Virus record (IMG/VR): IMGVR_UViG_3300037468_000493
Span: 1-64,000 of that record
Strand: one strand, 5' to 3'
Length of the DNA: 64,000 nt
Source: a virus
Shown here: piece after piece, positions 182 through 61,150 of the stretch
Layout of the letters: each line of letters opens with the position of its first letter
Position numbering within the stretch: position 1 is the stretch's first letter
Program-made: the position numbers and the translations under genes
The notes under the pieces: model-generated
The model's database searches: none
Seen by the model: only the letters and a program-made list of their open reading frames with translations
Told to the model about the DNA's origin: nothing

Positions 182-352
182 ATGAGACTGGCTCAGCGAA
201 TCGCAGCTAACCCCGAGAACTACACAGTCGCCGACTTAGCCGATGCCCATGCGGTGCTTAGGCCCACGGTGATGGGGGAGGAGGTGGGGGCAACATACCA
301 CCCGCCGCTATCCCGCAACGATCTCAAAAAGAAATATGGCCAACCCTCTTGA
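182..352 (+). CDS. Small hypothetical protein (56 aa)
   Basis: Open frame ending in TGA at 350-352. The first ATG in frame is at 182. The same frame stays open upstream to about 89 and reads like protein there too, but has no ATG, GTG or TTG start, so the 5' end may be truncated or use a rare start. The product is basic at its C-terminus (NDLKKKYGQPS). No family recognised. Its stop overlaps the -35 box of the next promoter. Confidence 0.45.
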   Translation: MRLAQRIAANPENYTVADLADAHAVLRPTVMGEEVGATYHPPLSRNDLKKKYGQPS

Positions 353-377
353 CATCACTAGCGCTAGTGATTAATAT
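349..377 (+). promoter_or_regulatory. Promoter with an 18-bp palindromic operator in its spacer
   Basis: TTGACA at 349-354 and TAATAT at 372-377 are separated by exactly 17 bp. A perfect palindrome, ATCACTAGCGCTAGTGAT (354-371), fills the spacer. A protein bound there would block RNA polymerase, the usual arrangement for a repressor-controlled promoter. A half-site GCTAGTGAT recurs at 747-755 inside a downstream gene. It probably drives the 403-1087 cluster. The repressor is not identified. Confidence 0.8.
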
Positions 378-23892: not shown

Positions 23893-24672
23893 CTAGGCGG
23901 CAGGGTCATCGGCGGCATAGAGCGGATAGTTGAGCTGCCCGGTAGCGCTGGCAGCAACGATGGTCTGGGTTGAATCAAACCTAAAAAACTGGGCCACGGT
24001 GCCTGTGGTGTTCCCCGGCGTGGCACTGCCCCCCCTGATGATGGCACAGCCGCTATAGGTGATGTTGGCCCCATTGGTATTATCGAGCAGAATAGGCACC
24101 GTCAGAACGGCATAGTGCGATCGAGTAGCCAGGGCCGCGTCTGGCTCTACCAGGATAGAGGGGCTGGCGGGGCTAACGGTGGGCCGATTGCTGGTACTGC
24201 CTGCGGTGGTAGGGTAGGCCGCGATTTCGTAGCGCTCCAGGTTTGCCACGCTTAAGAATAGGTTGTACTGGCTCCCGGTGATGATTGCGCCGGGGGTGAC
24301 CTCGACGGCGGTGTGGGTGCCACTACCCTGGGTGGTAAGGTCGATCGCACTACCGATCGCCCCCGCTGTGGTCAAGGTCGCCACGGTGATCTGAGTAGTG
24401 CTCGCAACGGAGGCCACATAGTAGGCGGTCTCTGCTACCAAGGGGGCCGGGAGCACCCCGGTGGTTTCAAACCGGAGACAGGTGCCCACGGCATAGTCAC
24501 TGCTGGGCACCGTGACTACATTGGTGCTGGTGTTGACATCCGTTGTGGCAAAGGTGCGGCTGGCCCCGGTTGCAGCCATATTCATCAACATTAGGTGAAA
24601 GCTATCGCCATTGCTTTTGTAGAGCAGGTTGAGGTGACGGGTTAGCTCGGATAGGGGTGTGATTGAGGCCAT
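23893..24672 (-). CDS. Phage structural protein (259 aa)
   Basis: Thr/Ala/Val-rich; residues about 40-125 contain a small beta domain pattern (ETAYYVASVASTTQITVATL) common in phage virion proteins. Starts with a helical SELTRHLNLLYKSNGD that may mediate assembly. Exact role unclear. Confidence 0.6.
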   Translation of the reverse strand: MASITPLSELTRHLNLLYKSNGDSFHLMLMNMAATGASRTFATTDVNTSTNVVTVPSSDYAVGTCLRFETTGVLPAPLVAETAYYVASVASTTQITVATLTTAGAIGSAIDLTTQGSGTHTAVEVTPGAIITGSQYNLFLSVANLERYEIAAYPTTAGSTSNRPTVSPASPSILVEPDAALATRSHYAVLTVPILLDNTNGANITYSGCAIIRGGSATPGNTTGTVAQFFRFDSTQTIVAASATGQLNYPLYAADDPAA

Positions 24673-29693: not shown

Positions 29694-29828
29694 CCTGTAC
29701 AGGGTGTGCAGGCCATGCAGGCTCTCGTTGAAATTATTTGGGTGTGTGTGCGGCGAAATTTTTTCGGAAACACACATCACTTTCACGCTAGGAAACAGGG
29801 GTGTTTGCCCTGCACGGCCTGCACAGTG
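29694..29828. repeat. Dispersed ~135-bp structured repeat, copy 1
   Basis: Begins CCTGTACAGGGTGTGCAGG and ends TGCACGGCCTGCACAG, imperfect inverted ends. The interior has a nested palindrome TGTGTGTG...CGAAATTTTTTCG...ACACACA. Two more copies lie at 43184-43316 and 43349-43481. The flanks TGCTAACTTCTTAGCGCC (29677-29694) and TGCTAATAAGTTAGCGCC (29827-29844) form a near-direct repeat like a target duplication. Confidence 0.8.
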
Positions 29829-31533: not shown

Positions 31534-31560
31534 AACCCCTCGGGGGAGGGGCGAGGGGTT
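31534..31560 (+). terminator. Rho-independent terminator
   Basis: AACCCCTCG (31534-31542) pairs with CGAGGGGTT (31552-31560). Ends the 30467-31506 operon. Confidence 0.65.
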
Positions 31561-31731: not shown

Positions 31732-31760
31732 CTTCCCCCTCTGCTCCAACTGGCGGGGGT

Positions 31761-31973
31761 TTAGGCAAGTGCACAGGATATCGCCATGGCGCTTACTTGA
31801 TTGCTTTCAATAGCCGCCTTAACCCATGCGTAGGCATTCCGCAAATCTACTTCTTCGTTAACCAAATATCGTTGCGTGTCGGGGAATACGCCAGCATCAA
31901 TGACGGTTTTTAGCTGCTTAGCGTTGTAGATGCCGTGATACTTTAGTGCCTGCTTAGCTTCTGATCTAGTCAT
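31761..31973 (-). CDS. Small protein under an early-type promoter (70 aa)
   Basis: ATG at 31973 follows the leader ATACCACCGCAAAGAGGCAC, the same leader as at 60880. Product basic then helical (SEAKQALKYHGIYNAKQLKT). Upstream frame extension runs through the promoter and is rejected. Confidence 0.65.
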   Translation of the reverse strand: MTRSEAKQALKYHGIYNAKQLKTVIDAGVFPDTQRYLVNEEVDLRNAYAWVKAAIESNQVSAMAISCALA

Positions 31974-32004: not shown

Positions 32005-32033
32005 ACTATAACCCCGCTTGACTGTTGCGTCAA
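32005..32033 (-). promoter_or_regulatory. Early-type promoter, variant
   Basis: Minus strand: TTGACG (32033-32028), 17 bp, TATAGT (32010-32005). The -10 and leader match the conserved early promoter family, the spacer does not. Confidence 0.6.
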
Positions 32034-32312: not shown

Positions 32313-32336
32313 GGTTGAGTTTCCTATGAAAACACC

Positions 32337-32555
32337 TCCGGCGGAAGGCTACGCAGAGCAGCAACCCCAGGGAATCGGACTAGGCGTTCACCACATTGAC
32401 CGCCCCTGCCGTTTGTAGCCGATAGTGGGAATCCCCTCTAGGGGGCACCGTCGCTAGGGCCATTGTTCACTCCCCGACAGGATCTTTAAGCGGTGTAGCT
32501 GGTTTCAGCGTTGGCCGATGTAGGATCCATGCTCTGCGTATCACCCCCCGCCGGA
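32337..32555 (-). ncRNA. Candidate structured leader RNA
   Basis: Between the promoter at 32604-32632 and the zinc-ribbon ATG lies about 285 nt without a gene. TACGCAGAGC (32350-32359) pairs with GCTCTGCGTA (32531-32540) and TCCGGCGG (32337-32344) with CCGCCGGA (32548-32555), a two-part long-range stem closing a ~170-nt domain. The closing stem abuts GGAGGTG, a ribosome-binding sequence, so folding could gate translation. It does not match a riboswitch class I can name. Confidence 0.5.
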
Positions 32556-32603
32556 AGCTTTGACTACGGGTGTGCATCCCGGTGGGCTTTTAGCCGATAC
32601 CTA

Positions 32604-32632
32604 ATATTAACCCCTTTTGAGTGTTGCGTCAA
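32604..32632 (-). promoter_or_regulatory. Promoter of the leader RNA
   Basis: Minus strand TTGACG (32632-32627), 17 bp, TAATAT (32609-32604). It lies in the second copy of a 34-40-bp repeat (32025-32065 and 32624-32657) that ends in GTGAAATTAGTTTTCAC, an operator-like inverted repeat. Confidence 0.6.
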
Positions 32633-50369: not shown

Positions 50370-51197
50370 TTAGCCGATAGGTAGGCGATCGCTCAAAGTA
50401 GCCATGCGATACTCAACCCGACAACGGCAACGGCCCCTACACCGGCAGGCCACACCCACCGGGGTTACCTCCGCAGCCGGTATCCAATCAGGACGGGCAA
50501 GGCCAGGACAGTCGGGGCAGTGGTCGGCGGCAGGGTCAAGCATTCGTCTCGCCATCCACCGACCATCGAGGTGGCTTTGGTGCTGGGCATCAAAGAAACT
50601 GGCCCCAGCGCTGTAGCCATACCGCCCCGCCCGGTATCGTGCCATCTTCTCTGATATCTCGCCGTCGGCAATACCCTGGGCCAGATTAGCTAGTCCATCA
50701 AGGTCCGCCACTATCTGCCGTCGCAATCGTTCTAGATGTTCTGGGGTGAGCTGCCCCGCTGTACCGGCCCCGGACTGGGCCATCCGAAAATGCGATCGCA
50801 CAATATCCCGGCCCATGGCCCGTTGCCATTGCTCCAGGCTCACGTCTCCGGCCACCATGCGATCGGTGAGTCGTTGCATCCGGGCTTGGTTCTGGGCCTG
50901 TTCTGTCAGTACCCGGCGTTGGAGGTCTGTGGTCGTCAGCGGCGATCGCCCTTGGTAGTATCGCCCATCCCGCGCACTGTAGGCCAAGCCCCTGGGGGTG
51001 AAGTTAGGGATCAGGGCCAGCAGTAGGGCCGCCACCAATAGCTCCTCAAGGGCGTTGCTGGATTCCCGGTTGGATTCATCAATGAGGGTTTGCAGTTCAG
51101 CCGTATCGTAAGGCGGCTCAAGGGCGTCTGTCCCTACCAGTGCCTCAAGTTCGGCTAGGGGGTAGGCAGTGCCGTTGATAGTGAGGGTTTCTACCAT
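50370..51197 (-). CDS. Minor head protein, SPP1 gp7-like (275 aa)
   Basis: ATG at 51197 is chosen over TTG 51206. Central GQLTPEHLERLRRQIVADLDG and C-terminal DHCPDCPGLA...W-P...GVACRCRGRCRC match the Cys-containing C-terminus of phage Mu F/SPP1 gp7-type head morphogenesis proteins. Lies between portal and scaffold as expected. Confidence 0.75.
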   Translation of the reverse strand: MVETLTINGTAYPLAELEALVGTDALEPPYDTAELQTLIDESNRESSNALEELLVAALLLALIPNFTPRGLAYSARDGRYYQGRSPLTTTDLQRRVLTEQAQNQARMQRLTDRMVAGDVSLEQWQRAMGRDIVRSHFRMAQSGAGTAGQLTPEHLERLRRQIVADLDGLANLAQGIADGEISEKMARYRAGRYGYSAGASFFDAQHQSHLDGRWMARRMLDPAADHCPDCPGLARPDWIPAAEVTPVGVACRCRGRCRCRVEYRMATLSDRLPIG

Positions 51198-51219
51198 GGG
51201 CCTCAAGGAAAAACGGGAA

Positions 51220-51237
51220 GCCCCTCGGGTGAGGGGC
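51220..51237 (-). terminator. Weak hairpin terminator
   Basis: GCCCCTC (51220-51226) and GAGGGGC (51231-51237) pair; on the minus strand TTCCCGTTTTT follows. Lies after the 79-aa gene. Confidence 0.45.
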
Positions 51238-51257
51238 GGGGGTTAGGTGAGGGTGGT

Positions 51258-51497
51258 TTAGGCTGCTTTTGCAGTCCTAATTGTCAAGCTTCTGTGATGC
51301 CAGTCTGCGCTTACTGCACCTTCACTGGCAAGCCACTTAGCTGATTTAAGTGCGTTTTCCCTGCCCTTAGTTTTGGCTGGGAAGAATTTTTGAACACCTC
51401 CGTCAGCGATGCCCCGTCCATTTTTGATTTGGATGGTGCCAATTTTTATCCATTCGCCACTGGCGGATTGTGCAGCGATTTGAAAAGTAGTAGCCAT
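51258..51497 (-). CDS. Small protein under an early promoter, inserted in the head operon (79 aa)
   Basis: Separated from the head genes by its own promoter (51530-51559) and a terminator, so it behaves as a moron. Compact basic protein (GEWIKIGTIQIKNGRGIADG) that could bind nucleic acid or a host protein. Confidence 0.7.
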   Translation of the reverse strand: MATTFQIAAQSASGEWIKIGTIQIKNGRGIADGGVQKFFPAKTKGRENALKSAKWLASEGAVSADWHHRSLTIRTAKAA

Positions 51498-51529
51498 GTA
51501 AGTGCCCTCCCAGGCGGTGGTATGTATCC

Positions 51530-51559
51530 ACTATAACCCACACCTTTTGTGACTGTCAA
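51530..51559 (-). promoter_or_regulatory. Conserved early promoter, copy in the head operon
   Basis: Minus strand TTGACA (51559-51554), 18 bp GTCACAAAAGGTGTGGGT, TATAGT (51535-51530). The homology with 60846-60875 continues both upstream (AAAGTAGTACAGAA) and into the leader (CATACCACCGC). Confidence 0.85.
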
Positions 51560-51614
51560 CCATCATTCTGTACTACTTTGGACTGGTACTGGTGAAGGCC
51601 ATAGCCTTGATCCC

Positions 51615-52031
51615 CTAAAACAAAATATTCCCGCCCTCGGTCACCGCCCCCAACACATCCTGCGGGTCGATCAAGTCTTTCAGCTTGGCCTTAAGTGCTG
51701 CCAGCTTATTGGTGTAGGCGGTACTCTCCTGCACCCCAGAGGGCGATCGAGTAATAGACAACTCCCCGGGGATCGACACACTGGAAATACCATCGTTGGC
51801 CGTCAACCCCAGGTCTAAATCTTCATCGGGGTCTCCGTACAGGGCCACCTGTAGCGCCTCAATCCGTTCCAGCAACCGCTGCACTTGGGCCACCACGGCG
51901 TCGCCATACTGCGCATCAAAAACTTCAACATCGCGTAACAACGTTTGGAGCCGGGATGACTCAGTACGCTGGTGTCGCTCCAGGTTCAAGGCTTCGGCGA
52001 TGGCAATACGGTTCGCGGTGGTGAATGGCAT
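51615..52031 (-). CDS. Hypothetical head protein after the portal (138 aa)
   Basis: Overlaps the portal gene end by one base. Helical first half (LERHQRTESSRLQTLLRDVE) and mixed second half. Possibly a head-completion or portal-associated protein. Confidence 0.6.
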   Translation of the reverse strand: MPFTTANRIAIAEALNLERHQRTESSRLQTLLRDVEVFDAQYGDAVVAQVQRLLERIEALQVALYGDPDEDLDLGLTANDGISSVSIPGELSITRSPSGVQESTAYTNKLAALKAKLKDLIDPQDVLGAVTEGGNILF

Positions 52032-55856: not shown

Positions 55857-56693
55857 TTACCTAATCGTCAGCATATACCTTGCGCTAGTCAGTCCGGGTG
55901 GGGTTACGCCCTGCTTTGCGTTAGTTTTGTCCCGATCTGTAGCCCCTGCCCTGAGATCATATTTGTTGTCGGACGATCCACTAACTAACCACTTATTGAA
56001 TTGAGCGGGTGTAACCCTATCCCCTATCGCAGACCTTAGTTCATGGATGGGGATGCTATCGCCCGGTTTTTTGCCAGCAAGTCGGCTAGAAATGGCCCGA
56101 TTAAATCCTGCCTGAGAATTAATAACCTCCCCGCTTTTAGTGCCTCTCCGAGCCTCTACAGCAGATTGCACCCTATTAGTCCCAGCGGAAGCTAAAGGCT
56201 TGATGCTGCTCCTCGTAAGGCCGCCCATATTAAAATCGGCTCTGCTATTAGCGTAGGAAAGATTTTTTTCAGATCCGAATTGAACTTTGTCATTTTGCAT
56301 CGCTTGCCGTAACTGGCTGCTAAATTTAGCATCTGTAAGCCCAGGGTGCTCAGATTGCATCCTGGCTTTCAAGTCGGCGATGGTTATAGGGGTGGTGCTT
56401 GCGACTCCCTGAGGAACCTGCTCTAGGCGTATTTGTTCAATATGCTGGAGCGCTAAATCTTCAAAATCTGCCTGGCTTTTAATATCGCCCAATGGGGATG
56501 CAGACGGATTCGCTTTCTCGGCCCCATCCATCACACCGCCACCACCGCCACCGCCGCCACCGCCGCCCTTCTGGCTAGCATGGTTCCCTGCCTTTACAGC
56601 GGCCCCGCCGTTGCCTGTCTGTCGATGGCCTATAAGTATGGCAATATCGCCGTTACCATCTTGGCAATGGTTGGTGCGGGTTGCGTTAGTCAT
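55857..56693 (-). CDS. Hypothetical protein with poly-Gly tract, early promoter (278 aa)
   Basis: ATG at 56693, behind an early-type promoter. Residues about 44-54 are eleven consecutive Gly, coded by a trinucleotide repeat. The C-terminal half has two related winged-helix-like segments (TIADLKARMQSEHPGLTDAK and PIHELRSAIGDRVTPAQFNK). No family recognised. Confidence 0.7.
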   Translation of the reverse strand: MTNATRTNHCQDGNGDIAILIGHRQTGNGGAAVKAGNHASQKGGGGGGGGGGGVMDGAEKANPSASPLGDIKSQADFEDLALQHIEQIRLEQVPQGVASTTPITIADLKARMQSEHPGLTDAKFSSQLRQAMQNDKVQFGSEKNLSYANSRADFNMGGLTRSSIKPLASAGTNRVQSAVEARRGTKSGEVINSQAGFNRAISSRLAGKKPGDSIPIHELRSAIGDRVTPAQFNKWLVSGSSDNKYDLRAGATDRDKTNAKQGVTPPGLTSARYMLTIR

Positions 56694-56725
56694 CGGTCGG
56701 TTCCTCTCTTGCGGTGTATGTACCT

Positions 56726-56755
56726 ACTATAACCCACACCTTTTGCAACTGTCAA
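56726..56755 (-). promoter_or_regulatory. Conserved early promoter
   Basis: Minus strand TTGACA (56755-56750), 18-bp spacer containing AAAAGGTGTGGG, TATAGT (56731-56726), followed by a CATACACCGC-type leader. Confidence 0.8.
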
Positions 56756-56782
56756 CTCCACTCAGAAATCTTTTGGCCATCG

Positions 56783-58050
56783 CTATAAATTCTGCTGTGA
56801 CCATAATTCGCTAGACTCCGGCGTGAATACCAAGATGGGGCGTTGATTGCTGTCGAGCCACTGTGACCACCCCATAGTTCCATCAGCTTGTTTTTCGTAG
56901 TCCCCGGCCCAGGCAAAGCAGGCAACATTGACAGGGCAGTAGACAGACTCCTTATACCCCCAAATATAGCCTAACAATTGCTCGTAGGACATCTTATTAG
57001 TAATGCCCTCGTGCCTGGCCGCGCTCCAAAATCTCGGCCCTGCGACGGCCCCGATATGTTGCCCAATAGGCCATACGCCATCTGGGAGCCAGGGCAATAC
57101 CTGATCCCGCCAGGTTTCGTAGTAGATCAAGTCGCCATCGGCTAGGGTATCCCAGGCCCAGTTAACAAAATCTTGCATCAAGGGATAGCGCTGGGGATAG
57201 ACCTGCTTGTAGGGCTCAAAGTAATCAGATCGTTCACCTTGCTGGGAGTCGTAGGCTGCGATACCCTCCACGGCGGCATAGTGCCTGAGGGCGGCTATGG
57301 TTTCGGCAATGGCAGGGTATTTGGCATGGTTGCGGGGGATGGCCTGGTCAAGGATCTCTGGCCCCAGCTTGGCCTTATCCCTGTCAGGCATCTTGGCAAT
57401 TTGCTTATGGCTGAGATGCAATGCCTGCACCCAAATGCCCTCCACCCCGAGCGCGGCCAGAGTCTTGACCATGGCCTGTGGGTCGGGTATCCATTGAGGC
57501 ACGACGGGGTTGACGCCAACGCAGACCCGGTGACCCCTAGCTATGACCTCAGCTATCATCTCTAGCCGCTGGGTGGGCCTAGGCGCACCGGGGGCACTGA
57601 TAGCCCCTATGCCATCGTCGAGGGTTTCCAGGCTGACGTAGAAGACCGTGGGTCTACCCTCAATCATGTCCAGTGCTGAGGGGTAGGTCTTGAATGGTTT
57701 CAGTAGGCCGTGGCCCCCCTTGGTCTGTAGGGACATCGGTATCCCCATTTTGACCATGGCCTTGATGAGGGGCAGGCTGTAGGCTAGGTTGCTACCGGCA
57801 AAGGGGTCAACGTGATTGGAGAAAACTACGGGGTATTTGGTCTTCAGGAGGTGCCCTTCGAGGGTATCGGCCCAGTAGCGATTCCTGAGCATTCGCAAAG
57901 CCTGTTTTGGGTAGGCTTTGCGAACGGGCTCGTTCAGGTTCGCAAAGCAAAAGGACATGAATGGCTACATACATTTAGAGACAGGTTGAGGGGGAAGCAG
58001 GCATTCAGCAAGAACCCGCCGTGATATAAAGTAAGACTTTGTTTTTCCAT
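56783..58050 (-). CDS. Radical SAM protein, frameshifted in its iron-sulfur motif
   Basis: From ATG 58050 the frame reads MEKQSLTLYHGGF ... NVCSHSCPF and then shifts: TGT-CCT-TTT-GC at 57949-57952 has four T where five would keep frame, after which CFANLNEP continues 391 codons to 56783. Joined, the motif is C-SHS-C-PF-C, the CxxxCxxC cluster of radical SAM enzymes, followed by a barrel (FSNHVDPFAG, FYVSLETLDDG). So the gene is inactive, sequenced wrongly, or uses -1 slippage on TTTT. An isolated start at 57958 would lack the cluster. Confidence 0.75.
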
Positions 58051-58849: not shown

Positions 58850-58879
58850 TTGACAGTTACGAAAGGTGTTTGCTATAGT
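58850..58879 (+). promoter_or_regulatory. Conserved early promoter
   Basis: TTGACA (58850-58855), 18 bp GTTACGAAAGGTGTTTGC, TATAGT (58874-58879). Shares the AAAGGTGT core of the family; the leader differs. Confidence 0.8.
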
Positions 58880-58918: not shown

Positions 58919-59152
58919 ATGACTGCACCCAATTCAACCAATCTAGTCGGCAAAGCTCTAAAAGGCAAAGGCAAGCTCACATGGACAATTGCCAAGAGAG
59001 AAGTTAGGGCTAAGTACATTGCTTGTTTTGGCAAGCCCCCCGCTGATTGCTACCTGCTAGAGCCTTCCAACACTTCAATGCGATCCGAATGGATCACTGT
59101 TGAGCAGCTTAAGAGAGATGTTCAGCTTGGCATTACCAAGTTTTCAAAATAA
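58919..59152 (+). CDS. Small basic protein (77 aa)
   Basis: ATG at 58919 after ACAGAGGCAAAACCA; the longer frame runs into the promoter. Lys-rich N-terminus (VGKALKGKGKLTWTIAKREV). Early gene of unknown role. Confidence 0.7.
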   Translation: MTAPNSTNLVGKALKGKGKLTWTIAKREVRAKYIACFGKPPADCYLLEPSNTSMRSEWITVEQLKRDVQLGITKFSK

Positions 59153-59472: not shown

Positions 59473-60165
59473 CTAGGTCGGTACTGCCCCGCCGCCCTGC
59501 CCCTGGTCGGGGTGGTTGCCTTTGTCAGACGCACGTTTAGGATATGGTTTCCGCAATGGCTCTATCTTAGCCCGCATCTCTGGTGTGAGTGGGTAGAGGT
59601 ATTTGTGTTTGCCGTCCACCACCCTGCAAGGCAAACCCTTTACAGATTTAGCCCCACCGCTGCCAAACGGGCTATAACTGGCCTCTCTGCTGTGCACCCA
59701 CTTCCCATCCTTAAAATATTCTCTCGTCTTATCACCTTTGCCTACATATATCCAGTTTGAAGCCTGGTAAACCCCTCCGTGGTGCCCTTGTGCTGGATCT
59801 GCATAGCTGATCACCAATTCAACGCCAGCACTTTGTCTTTGTAAGAATTTAAGCGCCAGTGCGATACATTTTGAGACACTGACCTTATGCTCTCTCATGG
59901 CAATGCGCACCAGTTCACAGAACCCAGTCGCGCTACACCCATAAGCTTTGCCAGCCAAGTGATTAGCACCTCTGGCGAAGATCACAGCGCCTATAAAATT
60001 ACCATCCTCCCAAATGCCAATTTTTACCAATTTGCCTAGGGGCATCTTTTTGGAATAGTGCCAGTTCATAACAGCGTATTTTGATGCTTTTGCACTGCAC
60101 CAATCGAGCCGCAATTCTGGCTTAGTACTGCTTGATAAATTGGTGGCCACAGTTGGGGCAGACAC
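59473..60165 (-). CDS. Mom-like DNA-modification protein (230 aa)
   Basis: GNAT-like architecture of phage Mu Mom proteins: NWHYSKKMPLGK near residue 34, FIGAVIFARGANHLAG, ELVRIAMREH, a helix SKCIALALKFL, then VISYADPAQGHHGGVYQASN. Mom adds a carbamoylmethyl-type group to adenine to evade restriction. The C-terminal 70 residues are basic. Overlaps the ParB-like gene by 44 nt, so both act together. Confidence 0.8.
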   Translation of the reverse strand: MSAPTVATNLSSSTKPELRLDWCSAKASKYAVMNWHYSKKMPLGKLVKIGIWEDGNFIGAVIFARGANHLAGKAYGCSATGFCELVRIAMREHKVSVSKCIALALKFLQRQSAGVELVISYADPAQGHHGGVYQASNWIYVGKGDKTREYFKDGKWVHSREASYSPFGSGGAKSVKGLPCRVVDGKHKYLYPLTPEMRAKIEPLRKPYPKRASDKGNHPDQGQGGGAVPT

Positions 60166-60673
60166 AATCGATCTCCTTTGGTTCTATCTGATCTAATCGG
60201 CCTTGCTCATCCTCGCCAACGGGTTCAAAGTCTGGCACCTCCTCACCCCATCCCTCAATCTCATCCGCCGTGAACCATGGCGTCAGGTCAATGTCTTCGC
60301 CCAATTCTGCTAGCGCATCGGTATCCCACGATAGGTTAACCTCGCCCACGCGATTATCAGCCAGGGCCAGTTCACGGCCTGCGGGGCTATCCAGCTCAAT
60401 GTCCGTGCGTTGCACCGCGACGAGTTGTTTGCCGTCGGTCTGCACCACAATCACATCTTCTAGGCCCAACTCCCCAAACTTGGCATGGGTCTTGTTTCCT
60501 GCAATGACACGGCCATGCTTATCCAAAAGGATTGAGCGGCCCGCCCCGAACTTTTCCAGGCTCTGGGTCAGCATGAAGTTCCCCCTCTCGGTGCCCTGGT
60601 TGGCATTGCGATCGTCGGGGATGAGGTCTGAGACTTTGCGGGCTGTAACCCGGTCGTAGATGTCGTCAGCCAT
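60122..60673 (-). CDS. ParB-like (ParB/Srx nuclease-fold) protein (183 aa)
   Basis: N-terminal DLIPDDRNANQGTERG then LDKHGRVIAGNKTHAKFGEL are ParB-type motifs as found in phage proteins partnered with methylases; LALADNRVGEVNLSWD follows. C-terminal CPNCGHQF is a half zinc ribbon. Probably guides DNA modification rather than partition. Confidence 0.8.
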   Translation of the reverse strand: MADDIYDRVTARKVSDLIPDDRNANQGTERGNFMLTQSLEKFGAGRSILLDKHGRVIAGNKTHAKFGELGLEDVIVVQTDGKQLVAVQRTDIELDSPAGRELALADNRVGEVNLSWDTDALAELGEDIDLTPWFTADEIEGWGEEVPDFEPVGEDEQGRLDQIEPKEIDCVCPNCGHQFIKQY

Positions 60674-60845
60674 GGGCTACCTAAGAATAAAGGCCCTGAG
60701 TACGCAGGGCCAGAGTGATCTTGTCCGTCGCTCTGGGGTCTGACTCCAGAAACAACGACTCCATTCTATCAGCCAGAATCTCGCAGTACTACTGTAGGGA
60801 TTCCAGCCCCCCGATACACCAGTACAAAGTAGTACAGAACAGTAG

Positions 60846-60875
60846 TTGACAGTCACAAAAGGTGTGGGTTACAGT
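60846..60875 (+). promoter_or_regulatory. Conserved early promoter
   Basis: TTGACA (60846-60851), 18 bp GTCACAAAAGGTGTGGGT, TACAGT (60870-60875), leader CATACCACCGCAAAGAGGCA. Upstream AAAGTAGTACAGAA also conserved with the 51.5 kb copy. Confidence 0.85.
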
Positions 60876-61104: not shown

Positions 61105-61110
61105 CATCAC

Positions 61111-61150
61111 GCCAGTTGGAGTAAAGGGGGTTCGATTCCCCCTCCTGGCC
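61111..61150 (+). other. tRNA 3'-end-like element (possible att core)
   Basis: GGGGG-TTCGATT-CCCCC (61126-61142) is a perfect T-arm with the standard TTCGA loop, followed by TCCTGGC-C like an acceptor strand. There is no 5' half, so not a tRNA gene; GCCAG (61111-61115) and CTGGC (61145-61149) can also pair. Temperate phages often carry a tRNA 3' end as attP. No integrase is seen nearby. Confidence 0.5.

Follow-up and report, generated by a model that had tools for sequence, protein, structure and literature searches.

A family of near-identical predicted promoters ahead of exchangeable genes in a cyanophage lineage

Why would a phage place nearly the same promoter-like block ahead of genes that are unrelated to each other? 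The question arises at positions 51530-51559 of the IMG/VR record IMGVR_UViG_3300037468_000493 (G000), where such a block lies inside the head operon, as an earlier note on this DNA had observed. That note saw in it one member of an early regulon of moron-like genes. We analysed the first 64,000 bases of the record (the window), and, where indicated, its full length of 79,753 bases.

At the end of both G000 and its relative G001 (IMGVR_UViG_3300042561_001378, 78,143 bases), 127 bases of the start recur as a direct repeat, so that both look complete. The closest matches to the G000 TerL are found in Cylindrospermopsis and Nodularia phages, and cellular relatives occur in Calothrix, Brasilonema, Symploca and Scytonema. 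Moreover, 35 copies of GCGATCGC, an octamer characteristic of many cyanobacteria, are present, against 1.4 expected from base composition. On these grounds G000 is a cyanophage, its host being a cyanobacterium. The coat protein matches the P22 coat family. Neither a tyrosine integrase (PF00589) nor a sigma-70 region 2 (PF04542) was detected in the phage. An EAL-domain gene (c-di-GMP phosphodiesterase type, by family match) lies at 63830-64609 (plus strand) of the genome. A repeat of about 133 bp with inverted ends (CTGTACAGGGTGTGCAGGCC...) occurs in five copies, at 29694, 43184 and 43349 (plus) in the window and at 74579 and 76121 (minus) in the genome, four of the five having counterparts at matching places in G001.

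The block at 51530 belongs to a family that we call type I. All four near-identical 30-bp blocks named by the earlier note were recovered, each with an 18-bp spacer and the core AAAGGTGT:

51530 to 51559, minus strand: type I block TTGACAGTCACAAAAGGTGTGGGTTATAGT, inside the head operon
56726 to 56755, minus strand: type I block TTGACAGTTGCAAAAGGTGTGGGTTATAGT, ahead of the packaging/head operon
58850 to 58879, plus strand: type I block TTGACAGTTACGAAAGGTGTTTGCTATAGT, TT haplotype with extended -10 (TGN-TATAGT)
60846 to 60875, plus strand: type I block TTGACAGTCACAAAAGGTGTGGGTTACAGT, with TACAGT

Their consensus is TTGACAGT-N2-C-N-AAAGGTGT-N2-G-N-TAYAGT. The first three carry TTGACA-N18-TATAGT, a pairing expected 0.02 times per shuffled window, and the fourth has TACAGT in place of TATAGT. 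When the whole of G000 was scanned with a matrix built from eleven sites (see below), the four blocks scored 49-52 bits and the next candidate 3.5. Over all sequences scanned, family members reached 41-53 bits, one relative in the contig G004 reached 26 bits and everything else stayed at or below 12, with a gap of about 30 bits between the family and anything else in the two complete genomes. Chance similarity is ruled out by these hexamer-pair counts and scores. A generic promoter scan of the 44.5-64 kb region returned 13 promoter-like sites against 13.0 in shuffles, hence no excess, and the four type I blocks were its top four. Another promoter, at 349-377 (plus), has a perfect 18-bp palindromic spacer resembling an operator (TTGAC-ATCACTAGCGCTAGTGAT-TAATAT); in a comparable place of G001 (66548, plus) there is a different palindrome, CTAATCGGTTGATTAG, as if the specificity of a regulator differed.

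Across the eleven sites, nearly all -35 positions and 12 of the 18 spacer positions are invariant, the spacer core reading GT..C.AAAGGTGT..G. The hexamers match at 10-11 of 12 positions, and the distance to the ATG is conserved, the block standing 30-70 nt upstream. The best reading is that the blocks are strong host-type (sigma-A/sigma-70) promoters forming one phage-specific family. They are not a coding repeat, as the reading frame through the block varies among copies relative to the start codon. Two promoter haplotypes can be distinguished, one with A12 and GG21-22, the other with G12, TT21-22 and an extended -10; the site at G004 3150 is an exception to this pairing. Because no phage sigma factor was detected, transcription from these promoters would probably rely on the RNA polymerase of the host.

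The family has a common leader, TRCATAC(CA)CCGC followed by a Shine-Dalgarno sequence, and several copies have a common terminator, CCCCTCnCCCGAGGGG plus a T run. Partial conservation of leader and upstream sequence had been proposed before, and it holds for some of the sites only: the leader CATACCACCGC is found at 51530, 60846 and at a further promoter at 32005, is shortened to CATACACCGC at 56726 and is absent at 58850, and the upstream sequence AAAGTAGTACAGAA precedes 51530 and 60846 alone.

We then asked where else the block occurs. It is not widespread in host genes: the strict pattern has no match in the genomes of 84,980 bacterial and archaeal species (GTDB), and none was found with up to three mismatches in 390 Cyanobacteriia genomes, which also rules out a host promoter acquired from one of these genomes. 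In IMG/VR, matches are confined to four related contigs, G001 (4 sites), G002, G003 and G004. A looser pattern, TTGACAGTNNCNAAAGGTGT, also matched unrelated coding sequences in viral contigs (L016-L022), which were excluded for having no -10 and no leader. The block is thus best described as a predicted lineage-specific phage promoter. Eleven sites in four phages, ahead of about nine unrelated payloads, could be compared; the comparison set consists of four related phages, one of them a 5.7-kb fragment, so that gain and loss are unpolarised at some loci. Core genes diverge by 7-9% between phages sharing the family. A further virus (L039/G009), with a TerL 63% identical, has no other tested head gene in common and no type I promoter.

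Comparison with these relatives delimits the unit at 51530:

51207 to 51614, minus strand: whole unit (promoter, leader, 79-aa ORF, terminator), from genome comparison
51258 to 51497, minus strand: 79-aa payload ORF, GC 47.1% against 54.3% for the genome
51221 to 51236, minus strand: intrinsic terminator stem CCCCTCACCCGAGGGG, then CTTCCCGTTTTT (fold -15.1 kcal/mol, z -4.2)
51566 to 51582, minus strand: upstream module TCCAAAGTAGTACAGAA, also at 60846, G001 43812 and G004 3150

The unit fits exactly from the stop codon to the start codon of its neighbours, a gene in the MuF position (50370-51206) and the gene preceding it (51615-52031). G001 and G002 do not have it, and there the flanking head genes overlap in TGATGG (G001 37487/37497); identity to the relative phage without the unit is 91-93%. 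One gene further on, between the next two head genes, G001 and G002 carry an antisense unit made of a promoter, a 49-aa ORF and the terminator stem of the 51530 unit, the stem that ends the G001 36006 unit. This antisense unit is missing from G000 together with a neighbouring ParB-like extension, so that gain and loss look alike at this locus. No homologue of the 79-aa protein was detected in Pfam, PHROGs or by tblastn against phage genomes.

Two blocks on the plus strand precede further small genes:

58919 to 59152, plus strand: 77-aa payload ORF behind 58850, GC 45.3%
60823 to 60839, plus strand: upstream module TACAAAGTAGTACAGAA
60907 to 61104, plus strand: 65-aa payload ORF behind 60846, with an 86% identical G001 orthologue in the same place

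The 77-aa protein likewise gave no detectable homologue in Pfam, PHROGs or tblastn against phage genomes, and none of the small payload proteins had an informative match in Pfam or PHROGs. The roles in host takeover or anti-defence that the earlier note had suggested for them thus gain no support here. The ORFs at 51258, 58919 and 31761 have a GC content of 45-47%, against 54.3% for the genome (5th percentile 45.0); the 65-aa ORF is at 54.5%. The payloads are not paralogues, as they share no similarity except for one orthologous pair. Terminators are present in the 51530 unit, G001 36006, G001 45165 and both G004 units, and no clear terminator of their own was seen behind 58850 and 60846 of G000. 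Directly 3' of the 65-aa gene, at 61107-61150 (plus), lies a hairpin resembling a tRNA T-arm (GGGGGTTCGATTCCCCC...CTGGC), kept in G001 and partly near 31750. Beside the 58850 cassette, a Mom-type DNA modification gene (Pfam 1e-44; 59473-60165, minus) overlaps a ParB-like gene (60122-60673, minus); G001 has only a ParB-like gene at this place.

The fourth block serves a different kind of gene:

56640 to 56792, minus strand: approximate insert relative to G002 (promoter, leader, start codon)
55857 to 56693, minus strand: 278-aa ORF, first in the packaging/head operon, starting in the inserted segment

This segment of about 150 bases is absent from G002, where both flanks join directly. In G000 it supplies the start of the 278-aa ORF, fused in frame to a poly-glycine ORF. 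The statement that each promoter precedes a different small gene thus applies to 51530, 58850 and 60846 (79, 77 and 65 aa) and fails at 56726; since that copy serves a 278-aa ORF, the family is not restricted to small accessory genes. The block at 56726 is predicted to feed this large ORF and possibly also the packaging operon.

At 32.0 kb, where a variant of the block had been suspected, the sequence keeps the type I leader (TTACATACCACCGC) but has a different core, a 17-bp spacer and no AAAGGTGT. We call this promoter type II. It has a sister that the earlier note had missed:

32005 to 32033, minus strand: type II promoter TTGACGCAACAGTCAAGCGGGGTTATAGT, ahead of a 70-aa ORF (31761-31973)
32604 to 32632, minus strand: type II promoter TTGACGCAACACTCAAAAGGGGTTAATAT, ahead of a structured-RNA candidate
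32331 to 32609, minus strand: non-coding RNA candidate with a long closing stem
31536 to 31551, minus strand: terminator stem CCCCTCCCCCGAGGGG plus TTTTT, end of the 31.5-32.6 kb unit

Both type II promoters have AAAACTAATTTC upstream. The RNA candidate has 5' hairpins with compensatory changes and is 90% identical to G004 1980-2259; it matched no known family in Rfam and nothing in phage or plasmid records, and among viral contigs it was found in G004 only. The G004 copy sits behind a type I-like promoter, the similarity to G000 beginning at the -10 hexamer.

Changes of this sort recur among the relatives. At 60846, the upstream flank, TACAAAGTAGTACAGAA and the promoter are common to G000, G001 and G004, and the G004 gene is unrelated from the start codon on. 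Conversely, G001 36006 and G002 12998 have an identical gene behind different promoters, with 10 differences in 40 positions of the promoter block against 5 in 295 around it (p = 4e-7). G001 45165 carries a promoter, an 86-aa ORF and a terminator (CCACCCTCACCACCCCGGCGAGGGTGG-TTTTTT) where G000 has a cytosine methyltransferase gene. In G004, one complete unit follows another in tandem and a third promoter is present as well; there a compound of terminator, AAAACTAATTTC and promoter, about 70 bases long, is repeated almost exactly. One terminator stem is found in different units. All together, genomes that are nearly identical differ in whether they carry a given unit of promoter and gene, in some cases with a terminator, and the genes that follow the promoters are mutually unrelated, so that the description as moron-like is well supported. 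At the level of sequence, these comparisons demonstrate that exchangeable payloads are framed by a common kit of promoter, leader and terminator and that the breakpoints fall at this kit.

We consider it likely that these units are moron-like cassettes whose host-type (sigma-A) promoter is specific to the lineage, that recombination at the control sequences they have in common shuffles them, and that they work in the manner of PeSLs (see below). The promoter and common leader, with the common terminator in several copies, would form a small self-contained expression cassette. Such cassettes would drop between phage genes or antisense to them, and host RNA polymerase would transcribe them whatever the surrounding operon does. 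As the control sequences are nearly alike throughout, the promoter, the leader or the terminator could each be a site of homologous or short-homology recombination, which would swap payloads and promoters among related phages and chain cassettes in tandem. Recombination as the mechanism is something that we infer, since the insertions bear no mark of an integrase, a transposase or a target-site duplication; the payloads would presumably benefit the phage. Activity from the start of infection ("early") is suggested by the resemblance of the consensus to host promoters and by the failure to detect a phage sigma factor. Two of the four sites, however, are located within the head operon or immediately ahead of it, and this argues against a purely early role.

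That the spacer core is invariant points to an additional constraint, possibly a regulator. The core GT..C.AAAGGTGT..G might be bound by a repressor or activator of the phage, one candidate being the XRE-type helix-turn-helix protein at 65.6-66.1 kb. All cassettes would then be switched on together, a possibility that we regard as tentative and that is compatible with shuffled cassettes. Twelve invariant spacer positions in eleven sites are indeed far beyond the needs of sigma-A, and an HTH_3 protein is encoded by both complete phages. However, the core is not palindromic, type II promoters retain the leader and upstream module without AAAGGTGT, no copy of the block precedes the HTH gene and nothing ties its product to the site. 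Recent copying could also give the conservation. Taken alone, the latter would mean that one promoter was lately duplicated, with a functionless spacer and no special mobility, and the great similarity of the copies within G000, the spacers of 51530 and 60846 being identical, fits such an origin. It is nevertheless unlikely: phages with 7-9% divergence in their core genes share the family, its payloads are unrelated, the variable block positions differ strongly even beside an identical gene while the core is fixed, and terminators and leaders travel along with the promoter. Finally, copies scattered in both orientations and their presence or absence between relatives might recall a transposable or MITE-like element that bears a promoter, the block being one of its ends. 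We find this highly improbable, given the clear promoter anatomy, the lack of an inverted partner of the block and the unit at 51207-51614, whose ends differ and which fits exactly from stop to start with no target duplication seen.

The promoter swap before an unchanged gene and the gene swap behind an unchanged promoter display modular phage evolution at base resolution. The tag TTGACAGT..C.AAAGGTGT..G.TA can serve to find accessory genes of this cyanophage lineage, including those too small or odd to annotate. More speculatively, and with a rather small chance of being right, the kit could be a built-in docking system: any ORF or structured RNA placed between two copies would become an immediately expressed, exchangeable cassette, also antisense in late operons, and the AAAGGTGT spacer would tie all of them to one phage regulator. 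In that case, the pool behind the promoters could be searched as a catalogue of cyanophage host-interaction genes. An unrelated isolate, Cylindrospermopsis phage Cr-LKS4 (OQ625504.1), has a different family of mutually alike TTGACA promoters before scattered small genes (for example at 24238, 51478, 52273, 73372 and 77898; an inverted duplication within the genome doubles some copies). It offers a culture in which the cassette principle can be tested.

Several known systems share features with this one. The 17-bp repeats of cluster O mycobacteriophages (PMC4351075) are also intergenic, with signs of recombination between copies; however, they are palindromic, number more than 30 and are mostly not at promoters. 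In cluster K mycobacteriophages, the start-associated sequences (SAS/ESAS), for which a role in translation initiation is proposed (PMC3203893), are likewise short conserved blocks ahead of many unrelated small genes and absent from hosts. They consist of a 13-bp block resembling GGGATAGGAGCCC that directly precedes the start codon and has inverted repeats upstream, whereas the block described here is a predicted -35/-10 promoter 30-70 nt before the ATG, without GGGATAGGAGCCC-like sequence. Single units have the main features of morons, as defined in lambdoid phages (PMC1524935, PMC6316719): insertion between genes that adjoin each other in related genomes, an ORF with its own promoter, and small proteins with no assigned function. 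A terminator behind the ORF and a low GC content, also named for morons, are seen here in some of the units. In contrast to morons, many unrelated units here have almost the same promoter and leader and in part the same terminator; other copies are without a terminator or would feed an operon already in place.

The promoter-early stem-loop cassettes (PeSLs) of T4-like myoviruses (Arbiol 2010; Comeau 2014, as described in PMC4503421) also resemble our units. In that account, they combine a terminator stem-loop with a host-type early promoter between genes and are associated with shuffling of small ORFs. Such a compound occurs twice in G004, and the presence or absence of units and the swaps of payloads and promoters among our phages correspond to the shuffling; the same article judges PeSLs unlikely to explain ORF gain in the T4-like cyanophage S-PM2. 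Measured against this description, the window differs in that a unit has its promoter at one end and its terminator at the other, the sequences are other ones, the density is lower (4-6 per genome) and cassettes also stand antisense in the head operon. Moreover, the phage is not T4-like (its TerL is near those of cyanobacterial siphophages and its coat has a P22-like fold), and we therefore do not class the units as PeSLs. They extend the shuffling of promoters and terminators, known from T4-like phages, to another group of cyanobacterial phages.
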